From Leucobacter massiliensis (GTDB lineage: Bacteria; Actinomycetota; Actinomycetes; Actinomycetales; Microbacteriaceae): DNA of 64,000 nt. The position numbers and the translations under genes are program-made. The notes under the pieces were generated by a model that saw nothing but the letters and a program-made list of their open reading frames with translations, was not told the DNA's origin and ran no database searches. Positions 18,874 to 50,949 of this stretch are shown piece by piece. Position 1 is the first letter of the stretch. Each line of letters opens with the position of its first letter. The DNA is taken from assembly GCF_002982315.1 (NCBI RefSeq), contig NZ_MWZD01000017.1, positions 62,001 through 126,000 on the forward strand. The letters are read 5' to 3'.

Positions 18874-19692
18874 TCAGCCGCCGAGCACGACGGAGCGCAG
18901 CTCGTCCACCACGGCTGCGTCGCCCGCGAAGAGGTACGGCTCGCCGGGAGGCGTCGCCTCGTCACGGCCGATGATCGCCGCCCCGGCCTCCGTCGCGATG
19001 AGCGCGCCCGCGGCGTAGTCCCACGGCTGCAGTCCGCGCTCGTAGTAGGCGTCGAGGCGCCCCGCCGCGAGGTTGCAGAGATCGAGGGCGGCCGAGCCGA
19101 TGCGGCGGATGTCGCGCACGTGCGGAATCAGTCGTGCAGCGGCCTCGGCCTGCTCCCGCCGGCGCTCCTCCGTATAGCCGAAGCCGGTGCCGACCAGCAG
19201 CGCGCCGAGCTCCGCGCGCCCGGCGAAGCGCAGCCGCGTGCCGCCGAGTCGGGCGCCGCCGCCCTCCCACGCCTCGAACAACTCGCCCGTCCGCGGGTTG
19301 CACACCGCGGCGGCGACCGCGCGCCGTCGGTCCGCGTAGGCGTCGCCCGGGACGGTCGCGGCAATGCTCACCGCGAAGGCGGGAATGTCGTAGAGGTAGT
19401 TCGTGGTGCCGTCGATCGGGTCGATCCCCCAGGTGATCCCGCTCGTGCCCGCCACGCCGGCCCCCTCCTCACCGAGCACGCCGTCCTCGGGCCGTGCCGC
19501 GAGCAGCTCGTCGACGATCCGGCGCTCGGCCGCGCGATCTGCCTCAGTGACCACGTCGATCGCGCTCGACTTGCTCGCGGCCACCGTAACGCCGCGATCC
19601 CGCATCCGGACGATCAGCTCACCGGCGCGCGTGGCCACCCCGGCGGCGAGGCGGGCGAGGGACTCGGGGTCGTGGGCGTTCGGCGCAGTCAT
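18874..19692 (-). CDS. Inositol monophosphatase family protein
   Basis: This 272-residue Mg-dependent phosphatase of the IMPase/SuhB superfamily has metal-binding motifs EEGAGV, WGIDPIDGTTNYL and the C-terminal LQPWDYAAGALIATEAGA. Substrate (myo-inositol phosphate or another sugar phosphate) cannot be told. The frame is open far upstream, but that part shadows amtB; the ATG at 19692 gives the normal length. A paralogue lies at 49988-50794. Confidence 0.9.
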   Translation of the reverse strand: MTAPNAHDPESLARLAAGVATRAGELIVRMRDRGVTVAASKSSAIDVVTEADRAAERRIVDELLAARPEDGVLGEEGAGVAGTSGITWGIDPIDGTTNYLYDIPAFAVSIAATVPGDAYADRRRAVAAAVCNPRTGELFEAWEGGGARLGGTRLRFAGRAELGALLVGTGFGYTEERRREQAEAAARLIPHVRDIRRIGSAALDLCNLAAGRLDAYYERGLQPWDYAAGALIATEAGAAIIGRDEATPPGEPYLFAGDAAVVDELRSVVLGG

Positions 19693-19825
19693 GCTTCCGA
19701 GCCTAGGGCACGCCGGGCGGCGAGACCGAGCCTGCCGCCGCCCGTCCCCGACCCGTCCCCGGCTCCGTGCCCCAGCCCGCACGGAGCCGGAGGCGGCCAG
19801 GACCCCCTGTCGCACGCAGGCGGAA

Positions 19826-21796: not shown

Positions 21797-22426
21797 TCAG
21801 AAGAAGCCGGGACCGTAGGCGAGGGCGTTCGCGAGCGTCGTGATGACCGTCGTCGCAAGGCCCACCGCCGCACCCCCGAGGGCGATGTGCGCGAGGACCC
21901 GGCCCCGGGGCCGGCTGCGGGTGAGCGTGCCGCCGAGCGCGAGGCCGAGCGCGACGAGGTACAGGAGGCCGCCCACGATGAGGTCCAGCCACTGCGCCCA
22001 GAAGAGCTGACCGGGCTCGAAGGAGATCGTGGCCTGGCGGAAGAGCTCACGGTTGATGGCCGGCAGGACGCTGGTCCACACCACCGCGGTGGTCGCGGTG
22101 AGGATCAGCGCGACGAGGCCGAGGACGTTGAGAGGGCCGCCCGCTGCGCGTGCCGTTCCCGTCGCGAACGCTGGGGCTCCCGGCGCGTACTGCGGTTGCG
22201 CCGAGGCGTACTGCTGCGCCGCGTACTGCGGAGCCGGGAGGTACTGCGGTGCCGCGCCCCCGGGCAGGGGAGCGGTGTAGTGCGGTGCAGCGCCTGGTGG
22301 CGGCGCCGCCCACTGCTGCGCCGGCCCGGGCTGCGGCTGCGCCGGCCCGGGCTCGGGCTGCGGCGGGGCGTAGCGGGGGAACTCGGGGCCGTCGTGCGCC
22401 CCTGGGGCGGGATCATTGATGCTCAT
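21797..22426 (-). CDS. Pro/Gln-rich membrane protein of unknown function
   Basis: I do not recognise a named family. The 209-residue protein has about 95 N-terminal residues very rich in Pro, Gln, Ala and Tyr (repeats of PAQPQPGPAQ and APQY). Three hydrophobic segments follow (LNVLGLVALILTATTAVVW, WLDLIVGGLLYLVALGLALGG, IALGGAAVGLATTVITTL). The layout resembles DUF4190-like actinobacterial proteins with a cytoplasmic disordered head. ATG 22426 is chosen because the frame upstream is a shadow. It is divergent from the SRPBCC gene. Confidence 0.72.
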   Translation of the reverse strand: MSINDPAPGAHDGPEFPRYAPPQPEPGPAQPQPGPAQQWAAPPPGAAPHYTAPLPGGAAPQYLPAPQYAAQQYASAQPQYAPGAPAFATGTARAAGGPLNVLGLVALILTATTAVVWTSVLPAINRELFRQATISFEPGQLFWAQWLDLIVGGLLYLVALGLALGGTLTRSRPRGRVLAHIALGGAAVGLATTVITTLANALAYGPGFF

Positions 22427-22546
22427 GAGCGAAGCATAGGGCGTGTCCGGGCGATCCCGCACCACCCGCGGTCCGACGGCGAGGAGGATCGCAGGATGCG
22501 GAGCAGCGGACGCACCCGCTCGTCGTCGTGACGATAGGGTCGGAAC

Positions 22547-23191: not shown

Positions 23192-23880
23192 GCGGGATGC
23201 AGGGGGAGGGGGTCTTTCGCCGGGCGCTCGGTGACGACTTCGCGCGACTGCACCCCGAGATGCAGAGGCGGTTCGGCGTGGGTATCGCCGCGGGCTACGC
23301 CTGCGTGGGTCGCGGCGTCATGGAGGAGATTCGCAGTGGTCCGCGCTGGGTGTCGTTGTTCCTCGCCTTCGGAGCGCTCCGCAACATCATGTTCCCGGAG
23401 CGCGGCCGCAACGTCCCGTTCACGATCGAGAACTACGCCTACCTCGACGGCTTCGGCCGCGAGACGGTGAGCTTCGTCCGCACGATGCGGGTGAGCCGGG
23501 GGCGGCGACGCAGATTCGACGCGACGATGGTGTACAGCGAGCGGCGTGGCCGGGTGGTCGACTATCTCGGCACCCACCAGCACCTCGCGGTCGACCTGGA
23601 ACTGTCGGTCACCCCGGGCGGTGGACTGCGCCTGCGATCGGGAGCGCAGCGCTTCTACGAGGGTCTGATCGGCTTTCGCTTCCCCATGCTCCTGAGCGGG
23701 TTCGCGGAGCTGCACGAGCACTACGACGAGGACCGCGGATGCTTCGTCATCGATCTCGAAGTGCGCAATCGCTTCGTGGGGAGGCTGTTCGGATATCGCG
23801 GTGTCTTCAGCTGCGAGTATCTCTCGGGAGTGCCGGTCCCCGAGACGGTGAAGCCCTACCGGGAGGAGCTGCGCGAGTGA
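23188..23880 (+). CDS. DUF4166 domain protein
   Basis: This 230-residue protein has DUF4166 features: LHPEMQRRFGV near the start, RNVPFTIENYAYLDGFGRETVSFVRTMR, YLGTHQHLAVDLELSV and an FRFPMLLSGFAELHEHYDE segment. It starts at a GTG overlapping the previous stop and overlaps the next gene in the same way. Biochemical role is unknown; DUF4166 often accompanies NAD(P)-binding proteins, none of which is seen here. Confidence 0.72.
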   Translation: MSGMQGEGVFRRALGDDFARLHPEMQRRFGVGIAAGYACVGRGVMEEIRSGPRWVSLFLAFGALRNIMFPERGRNVPFTIENYAYLDGFGRETVSFVRTMRVSRGRRRRFDATMVYSERRGRVVDYLGTHQHLAVDLELSVTPGGGLRLRSGAQRFYEGLIGFRFPMLLSGFAELHEHYDEDRGCFVIDLEVRNRFVGRLFGYRGVFSCEYLSGVPVPETVKPYREELRE

Positions 23881-24632
23881 GCGGGAGCGGATCGGTGTTC
23901 CTGGGGGCGCTGGGGGAGCGCGGCACCGCGTCGCTGCACCCCGAGGTGCTGGCCTATGCGGCGGGTGCGGGGGCCGACACCGCGGGTGCACAGCGGATCG
24001 TGGGGGTGTTCGAGGCGGTCGGGAGCCCGTGGGCGCCGCTGCTGCGGCTCGCCCGCCCGCTGCTCGGCCCGGGAGCGCTCATCGCGCGGCGAGGCCGGAA
24101 CGTGTCGTTCGTGCTGACGAACCGCTTCGGGGCCGGAGACGGCGGAGCAGGCGGGGAGCCGGCGTTGCGCGCCACGCGTTCGCTGCGCTTTCCCGGTGGA
24201 ACGGAGGTCTTCAGCGATCTCCTCACGCCGGGGCCGCGGCCGGGCACGCTGCGCAACCGGCTCGGAGAGCGAGGCCGGGTGGAGCTGCTGCTGCGCTGCG
24301 AGGCGAGCCCCGAGGGCGGTTTCCGCATGCGCTCGCTTGCGGCTCGGCTGCGTCTCGGCCGGGAGGGACGGATCCGGATCCCGCTCCCTCGGCTTCTCGG
24401 CGTCGAGGCCGATCTGGCTCAGGGATTCGACGAGGTGACGGGCCGGCACTGGATCGACGCCAGGGCGCGCAATCCGCTCCTCGGCACCGTCCTCGACCCG
24501 TCCCTTATACACATCCGAAGCCGCCGACGGCATGCAGGCGGGTGGGTCGCGGTGGGGGCGCCCGTCGGTACAAAAAACAACACAAATGAAGCGTGCGGAC
24601 TCAGCGGAAATGCGTGGACTCACGGACCCTAG
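23877..24632 (+). CDS. Second DUF4166 protein, C-terminus corrupted by adapter
   Basis: This is a paralogue of the preceding protein, sharing LHPEVLAYAAGAG, RRGRNVSFVLTNRF, SLRFPGGTEVFSD and RIPLPRLLGVEADLAQGFDE. It starts at a GTG overlapping the upstream stop. From about residue 207 (base 24498) the sequence stops resembling the family and becomes translated adapter-like sequence (PSLIHI onward), so the listed stop at 24632 is not trustworthy. The real gene probably ends shortly after ARNPLLGT. Confidence 0.6.
   Translation: MSGSGSVFLGALGERGTASLHPEVLAYAAGAGADTAGAQRIVGVFEAVGSPWAPLLRLARPLLGPGALIARRGRNVSFVLTNRFGAGDGGAGGEPALRATRSLRFPGGTEVFSDLLTPGPRPGTLRNRLGERGRVELLLRCEASPEGGFRMRSLAARLRLGREGRIRIPLPRLLGVEADLAQGFDEVTGRHWIDARARNPLLGTVLDPSLIHIRSRRRHAGGWVAVGAPVGTKNNTNEACGLSGNAWTHGP
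24498..24590 (+). other. Probable Nextera adapter read-through (assembly artefact)
   Basis: CTTATACACATC at 24504-24515 matches the Tn5 mosaic end exactly. It is followed by a degraded match to the Nextera i5-side read-through (GCCGACG at 24523-24529), an 8-9 nt index-like gap, a CGGTGG match at 24550-24555 and an A6 run at 24572-24577 in an AT-rich tail. By hand about 27 of the first 33 bases agree with the adapter as I remember it. Natural sequence probably resumes near 24591. Confidence 0.8.
24592..24610 (+). repeat. Half copy of dispersed palindromic repeat
   Basis: The 19-mer CGTGCGGACTCAGCGGAAA is identical to the right arm of the repeat at 25825-25879. Its expected left arm is absent and replaced by the adapter-like sequence, which suggests sequence was lost or misjoined here. 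Confidence 0.7.
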
Positions 24633-24823: not shown

Positions 24824-25834
24824 ATGAACTCCGACGAACGAATACACCGCCTGCGTGAGACGATCGCCTTCCGCGCCGCCCTCCTGCGCGGCATGACCGA
24901 GAACAAGCTCCGAAGCGAGCTGCGCGACGGCTCGCTCGTCCGCGTCGCTGCCGGCGCATATGCCGGAGCCGAGGCGTGGACGAGCCTGAGCCGGGAAGAC
25001 CGTCACCTGGCGGTTGCGATTGCGGCGGATCATCACGCGCGGAGGCGGCCTCCGCTCTTCTGCAGGGTCACGGCGGCCGCCCTCTGGGGTCTGCCGCTCT
25101 ATGGCGTCGGCTACGGACGGGTCGACGTCCTCGCTCGGGGCCGGCGCACGGGTGACAGCAGCGCCACTGTGCGGCGGCACCTGGGAGCGCACGCACCCGA
25201 GGAGATCGTGGAGCGCGGTGGGCTCCTGTGCACGACGCTGCAGCGCACGCTGCTCGACGTCGCCAGGTTCGCATCCACTGAGCAGGCTCTCCCCATTCTC
25301 GATGCCGGACTCCGTTTCGCCTCGGCAGAAAACGGGGCGGGCGGGGAAGCCTGGGCCGGGGAGCTCGGAGAACAACTCGGGCGACTGCGCGGCCAGCGCG
25401 GGGTGGGGCAGGCGCGGCAACTGCTGGGGATCGCGGACCCGCGCTCCGACTCCGTCGCGGAGAGTCTGAGCCGGTTGCAGCTGCACCGGCTCGGCTACGA
25501 GGTGGAGAGCCAGGTGGAGGTCCCCTCGCCCTCAGGGGGTGCCTATCGCGTGGATTTCGAGCTCGTCGGGCTCGGGGTCTTCGGCGAGGTCGACGGTCGT
25601 TACAAGTACACGGACGAGGGCTTGCTCGCTGGTCGCGAAGCTCGTGAGGTGGTGCTCGCGGAGAAGGCGCGGGAGGACTGGATCCGGGGCGTGACGGGAA
25701 AGCGCGTCGTGCGCTGGGGGTTTCAGGAGGCCCGGACGCCCGAGGCCCTGGCCGCGCGGCTCCGCGCCTTCGGCGTGCCGATCCCCGGGCTGCGCCGTTC
25801 TGCCCACGTCGCTGAGTCCGCACGTTTCCGCTGA
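24824..25834 (+). CDS. AbiEi-like antitoxin-domain / endonuclease-fold protein
   Basis: The 336-residue product resembles actinobacterial proteins annotated as AbiEi-type antitoxin-domain proteins. An N-terminal winged-helix-like region (LRSELRDGSLVRVAAGAYAGAEAW) is followed by RVTAAALWGLPLYG and a C-terminal region (AYRVDFELVGLGVFGEVDGRYKYTDE) recalling PD-(D/E)XK-like folds. No AbiEii toxin partner is adjacent, so it is an orphan. The final residues (AESARFR) and stop lie in the dispersed repeat. An ATG at 24776 is an alternative start. Function is uncertain. Confidence 0.65.
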   Translation: MNSDERIHRLRETIAFRAALLRGMTENKLRSELRDGSLVRVAAGAYAGAEAWTSLSREDRHLAVAIAADHHARRRPPLFCRVTAAALWGLPLYGVGYGRVDVLARGRRTGDSSATVRRHLGAHAPEEIVERGGLLCTTLQRTLLDVARFASTEQALPILDAGLRFASAENGAGGEAWAGELGEQLGRLRGQRGVGQARQLLGIADPRSDSVAESLSRLQLHRLGYEVESQVEVPSPSGGAYRVDFELVGLGVFGEVDGRYKYTDEGLLAGREAREVVLAEKAREDWIRGVTGKRVVRWGFQEARTPEALAARLRAFGVPIPGLRRSAHVAESARFR

Positions 25835-25879
25835 GTCCGCACGTTTCAGGGCCGCAGAACCGTGCGGACTCAGCGGAAA
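25811..25879. repeat. Dispersed palindromic repeat, complete copy
   Basis: Perfect 19-bp arms TTTCCGCTGAGTCCGCACG (25825-25843) and CGTGCGGACTCAGCGGAAA (25861-25879) enclose a 17-nt loop containing GGGCCGCAGAA. An extra left half-unit, GCTGAGTCCGCACG, precedes it at 25811-25824. Related copies are at 24592 and 41973-42033. It supplies the stop codon of the preceding gene. Confidence 0.8.
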
Positions 25880-25955
25880 TGGGCGGGCTCGACCGAGAAG
25901 GGGCATCCGGGGGCGGACGGACGGGGCCGAATGGGGCAAGGGGCAGGAGAGACGG

Positions 25956-40823: not shown

Positions 40824-41192
40824 GGGGCCGATCGGTTTCGACACGTCGATTTGAGACTGTGAGAAGCGGGCCGAGGACGCGGAGTTATCTCGTAAACGCC
40901 CTTCGCAAACCATAGGTGCCAACGCTAAGCGCACCGACTTCGCTCTCGCTGCCTAAGCACGAGACCGAGTCCGTCAGGTCGGGTGGGCCTCCGCCCCGGT
41001 TTCCTGGCGTCATCTAGGAGGCTTGCTGGCGCGTCGTGTCTCAGGGCGCGCCGGGACTTTCACTGAGGCTGGGCCTGTCGTTCAAGGTGTTCGTGACAAT
41101 GAACGGGGCCGAGCAGAACGCTTGCACGAACTACGCTCGTAGAAGGCACGGAATCGTCGAAGTGGACCGGGGTTCGATTCCCCGCGGCTCCA
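40824..41192 (+). ncRNA. ssrA: tmRNA (SsrA)
   Basis: The 5' end GGGGCCGATCGG pairs with the 3' CGGCTCC to form the acceptor stem, and the T-arm CGGGGTTCGATTCCCCG is at the 3' side. The resume codon GCC is at 40918, and the tag reads ANAKRTDFALAA followed by TAA (40954-40956). The 3' CCA is not encoded (ACG follows). It rescues stalled ribosomes with SmpB. A terminator follows at 41224 and a second copy of the 3' end at 41367. Confidence 0.97.
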
Positions 41193-41231
41193 CGTACGCA
41201 TTTGCATCGCACGCTGTGGGAACGAGAGAGG
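41168..41231 (+). repeat. Direct repeat copy 1 at the ssrA 3' end (att-like)
   Basis: This 64-bp stretch from the T-arm of tmRNA into the first arm of its terminator is repeated at 41367-41430 with 3 mismatches. A direct repeat of a tmRNA 3' end is the usual mark left by site-specific integration. Confidence 0.75.

Positions 41232-50876: not shown

Positions 50877-50949
<73 letters not shown>

Follow-up and report, generated by a model that had tools for sequence, protein, structure and literature searches.

The window that we analyzed, a 64,000-nucleotide stretch corresponding to C9:62001-126000 of the Leucobacter massiliensis assembly (3.14 Mb in 24 contigs), carries a second DUF4166 protein gene that breaks off shortly before its expected end. 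The piece 23880-24506 matched PF13761 with an E of 9.3e-17, and the match ends at residue 205 of 209. About 89 bases follow (24498 to ~24586), holding in this order a mosaic end, which is a Tn5 end sequence, an i5 stub, an 8-base index, the reverse complement of P5 and an A-rich tail. Behind the tail stands the right part of a palindromic repeat, and further on the next gene, a reliable right-hand neighbour (Table 1). The segment 24498 to ~24586 is a Nextera (Tn5) adapter read-through built into the Leucobacter assembly, a conclusion about which we have very little doubt.

Table 1. Features at and around the adapter site; coordinates are those of the window.
Feature	Coordinates	Strand	Basis and remarks
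Second DUF4166 protein gene, 3' end lost to adapter; start codon not settled	23880..24497	+	PF13761, homologues
Tn5 mosaic end, degraded	24498..24516	+	16/19 positions; C9:86498-86516, 3 mismatches
Nextera i5-side stub, degraded	24517..24530	+	11/14 positions, 3 mismatches (row L086)
Index slot CATGCAGG	24531..24538	+	2 bases from TATGCAGT (S506 reverse complement)
P5 reverse complement, heavily misread	24539..24569	+	Aligned to 24555; remainder placed by order and length only
A-rich tail beyond adapter end	24570..24586	+	Sequence; A-run of at least 5 starts 55 bases after mosaic end
Palindromic repeat, right part, where genome-like sequence resumes; left arm absent	24587..24614	+	Resumption point approximate, to within a few bases
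Next gene, reliable right-hand neighbour	24824..25834	+	Open piece 24827-25831; no Pfam family at E 0.001
Palindromic repeat, copy with both arms	~25821..25883		Comparison copy; fold of 25815-25890

The original prediction had read this segment as a sequencing adapter embedded in the contig, citing an exact 12-base match to the Tn5 mosaic end, a degraded Nextera i5-side read-through, an index-sized gap and an A-rich tail. The exact match is there, as the core CTTATACACATC at 24504-24515 (C9:86504-86515), and the degraded read-through could be followed around it: the mosaic end CTGTCTCTTATACACATCT is present in read-through orientation at 16 of its 19 positions and passes directly into the stub GACGCTGCCGACGA, 11 of whose 14 positions agree. 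The letters of both parts are given in PMC6460022. The P5 reverse complement aligns to base 24555 with one extra base and matches poorly beyond it, and the A-rich tail is in place, its A-run setting in 55 bases past the mosaic end as compared with 53-64 in other copies of the assembly. Where a gap of index size had been described, a slot of 8 bases does stand in the right position, but it is not blank and holds a readable index agreeing with that of the other copies. Similarly, the start of the adapter at 24498 held, whereas genome-like sequence resumes at about 24587 and not at 24591. Alignment of the Nextera read-through to the site, put forward with the original prediction as a check, gave 79% identity with an E of 9.2e-6 (BLAST of the adapter template); 44 places in the assembly were listed at E up to 10, and the site is the only place within the window among the template matches and mosaic-end matches listed. 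Scored against a template in which the index was masked and the A tail left out, the site reached 26, while 5000 dinucleotide shuffles reached at most 14, 3185 other tiles of the window at most 17 and 8886 tiles from ten relatives (179 kb) at most 20. Unmasking the index gave an alignment of score 30 with one gap, in which 44 of 55 columns agree. The adapter was seen at one flank only of the site.

The claim that the second DUF4166 protein loses similarity exactly at the adapter was confirmed to the base. The piece was matched in 19 of 54 genomes of the genus, this one included, and the ten closest other genomes align to residue 206, the codon of which ends at 24497, one base before the mosaic end begins. 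Directly after residue 206, all ten of the closest homologous genomes carry YRG and reach a stop after 10 to 24 residues; eight more distant homologues align to residue 204 or 205, with related but varied endings. Here the frame stays open to 24632, adding 44 residues that come from the adapter and from the repeat behind it. We infer that the gene has lost its final codons here and the palindrome its left part. No meaning should be read into the 44 added C-terminal residues or into the half palindrome. A scan of the genome contigs with the DUF4166 piece found no relative.

Searching the whole assembly, we found 36 mosaic ends at up to three mismatches and 26 at up to two, as compared with none for the reversed control at either threshold. 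None of the 36 is exact, one carries a single mismatch, 25 carry two and 10 carry three; this spectrum fits the survival of copies that a trimmer had missed, the clean ones having presumably been removed by trimming. Fifty-four of the 81 mismatches change A or T to G or C (35 T>C, 12 A>C and 7 T>G), in a mosaic end that is itself A+T-rich. In eleven of the copies the contig terminates less than 100 bases ahead, C17 having two such copies at a single end; the other 25 point toward a contig end that is more than 100 bases away. A run of at least six G within the 40 bases before the mosaic end was found at 7 of the 36 copies and in 2 of 992 window tiles. Across the genus, 48 of 54 genomes had no mosaic end at up to two mismatches, and five besides this one had matches. 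By contrast, G046, another member of the genus, is an untrimmed assembly: 71 of its 72 mosaic ends are exact, and none of the 32 on the reverse strand lies farther than 50 bases from the start of a contig.

Individual copies differ in their surroundings. Two copies about 9.5 kb apart, C10:140656 (L066) and C10:150201 (L065), agree in their misreads across mosaic end, stub and P5, as though the assembler had gone through a single adapter path of its graph twice; not all copies are therefore independent. At C8:106167 (L017) the same 39-base direct repeat stands on both sides of the adapter, which suggests a false tandem duplication produced by an overlap join through duplicated flanks. An overlap join of this kind was rejected for the window site, the longest run shared by its flanks being 8 bases. 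Facing pairs of adapters occur at C7:64444-64587 (64444 and 64569) and at C10:158366-158560 (158366 and 158542), which would fit a head-to-head join of two contig ends that both had adapter tails.

To compare the library index between copies, the 36 were selected by mosaic end alone and their index slots were read without gaps, so that distant slots may be shifted. A slot was counted as readable when the i5 stub lay within four mismatches and the slot was complete, which held for 20 copies; of the remaining 16, nine had a stub more than four off, among them one i7 copy and one i5 copy with an inserted base, and seven had too little following sequence. Fourteen of the 20 slots lie within two bases of TATGCAGT, three lie at three, two at four and one at seven, and among all 65,536 8-mers TATGCAGT is the best fit to the 20. 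The consensus of the 19 slots outside the window is again TATGCAGT, from which the window slot, CATGCAGG, is two bases away, a distance matched or bettered by 72 of the 63,993 8-mers of the window. In PMC7589761, S506 is listed as ACTGCATA, the reverse complement of which is TATGCAGT, and CGAGGCTG is the index tabulated for N710; the S506 and N710 numbers come from tables for other protocols with the same 8-base codes. On the i7 side, five of six stub matches have a slot within one base of CGAGGCTG and the sixth is seven away, a count that is biased because most i7 loci were fetched with a template containing CGAGGCTG; furthermore, two of the five matching copies have misreads in common.

Whether the sequences on the two sides of the adapter belong together was examined by gene order, using ten stretches from relatives and 11 query regions; two of these regions, 18874-19700 and 21797-22530 on the minus strand, contained stops and were each represented by their longest open piece, and neither bears on the outcome. 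A chimeric misjoin, in which the adapter tails of two non-neighbouring contig pieces were joined and the gene order would also be false, deserves the most attention among the alternatives, given that the facing pairs on C7 and C10 point to pieces joined through their adapters elsewhere in this assembly and that the flanks of the window site have no overlap. The relatives, however, keep the gene order across the site: in four of the ten, a homologue of the right-hand gene comes directly after the second DUF4166 gene, and nine have the aminotransferase no more than 2 kb away; in the tenth the distance is about 9 kb, with the aminotransferase at the stretch's edge. We therefore regard a misjoin as very improbable. 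The relatives share the genes to the left and right as well as their order, so the two flanks probably do adjoin in the genome, apart from a short missing piece. Accordingly, the original prediction that the join between the flanks is artificial stands for its letters, as seen in the adapter parts, the index and the break of the homologues, but not for the order of the genes, which is probably true. A second scan of the genome contigs, with the aminotransferase beside the site, did yield relatives, unlike that with the DUF4166 piece; the closest named ones are Leucobacter, up to 98% identical (among the best 80 of 575 relatives). The left flank occurs only once in the assembly, and the right flank has six further matches, of 31-40 bases and to the repeat part only. 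Between residue 206 and the next gene's start we counted about 330 bases here, 89 of them adapter, and about 327 to 408 in the four relatives, on the assumption that gene starts are alike; by this rough measure, perhaps 90 to 170 bases are missing at the site.

A native sequence that resembles an adapter by chance, next to a protein end that was naturally altered, is more improbable still. Such a reading could draw on the degraded state of the copy (79% over the aligned part) and on the scores of up to 20 that unrelated sequence of relatives attains against the 26 found here, yet none of 5000 shuffles scored above 14, mosaic ends recur 36 times genome-wide against none for the control, the indexes agree, and the homologues break one base before the mosaic end; we rejected it on the shuffles, the recurrence and the index agreement. 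A real Tn5/IS50-type element or laboratory transposon that inserted and left an end, the least probable of the alternatives, would account for 12 exact bases of the Tn5 end sequence, but it was rejected because a synthetic stub, an index common to other copies and P5 occupy the place where the transposon body is expected, in an assembly with 36 copies, 11 of them at contig ends.

The site is probably a short gap that adapter sequence has filled, and not a chimeric join. The half palindromic repeat reported behind the site was recovered: after the A tail only the right arm is present, at 24592-24607, and the left arm of the two-armed comparison copy has no counterpart here. The segment 25815-25890, around that copy, folds at -35.4 kcal/mol with a z of -10.97. 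This strong fold makes loss of reads at a hairpin plausible, and we infer that the gap was perhaps opened by such a strong palindromic hairpin. The 16-base core of the palindrome occurs at nine places in the assembly at up to one mismatch and at none in the control; its exact 13-base core is absent from the 28 named loci and from the ten relatives' stretches. The left flanks of the 36 copies fold no better than 300 random tiles (p 0.35), and their G+C of 0.743, as compared with 0.720 in 992 tiles, does not support a link (p 0.06). As the copies show no general link to hairpins or high G+C, the hairpin is offered as a cause for the window site alone.

The origin of the padded gap could be as follows. 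In a library with short inserts, reads would pass through the insert into the mosaic end, stub, index and P5, and reads continuing past the end of the molecule would yield the A-rich tail. Trimming would have taken out clean adapters while misread ones slipped through. With few good reads near a strong hairpin repeat, one contig piece may have come to end in read-through reads; its adapter tail would then have been used, by assembler or gap filler, to bridge the short gap to the true neighbouring piece.

The adapter site is an ordinary artefact of an already described kind and no real biological feature. PMC11536531 describes adapter contamination of microbial assemblies, where exact 12-base TruSeq matches were counted and were concentrated at contig ends. 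As in that description, adapter lies in contigs, in many copies per assembly, some of them running off contig ends; unlike there, the adapters are Nextera and not TruSeq, all 36 mosaic ends carry one to three misreads, and the copies, 25 of 36 being more than 100 bases from the contig end that they point to, are mostly internal. The Nextera oligos and indexes of Illumina are given in PMC6460022, PMC8185305 and PMC7589761, and the dual-index adapters listed there (i5 S506, i7 N710) agree with our copies in part order, stub letters, index letters and parts of the flow-cell oligos, whereas the window copy differs from them in its misreads and its A-rich tail. Among the papers searched, none contained both the mosaic end and the word Leucobacter. 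The result removes a false lead, and about 36 places in the same assembly need equal caution. The assembly also shows that contigs can contain internal adapters whose mosaic ends are misread at one to three positions, and a screen for exact matches would miss these. More tentatively, and with considerable doubt, degraded intra-contig adapters at read-starved palindromic hairpins, misread beyond the reach of exact-match screens, might be a hidden and systematic reason why G+C-rich drafts show false protein ends and split repeats. Elsewhere in the window, a tmRNA (40824-41195) and a tRNA gene (50877-50949), both ordinary, were the only Rfam matches at gathering scores.
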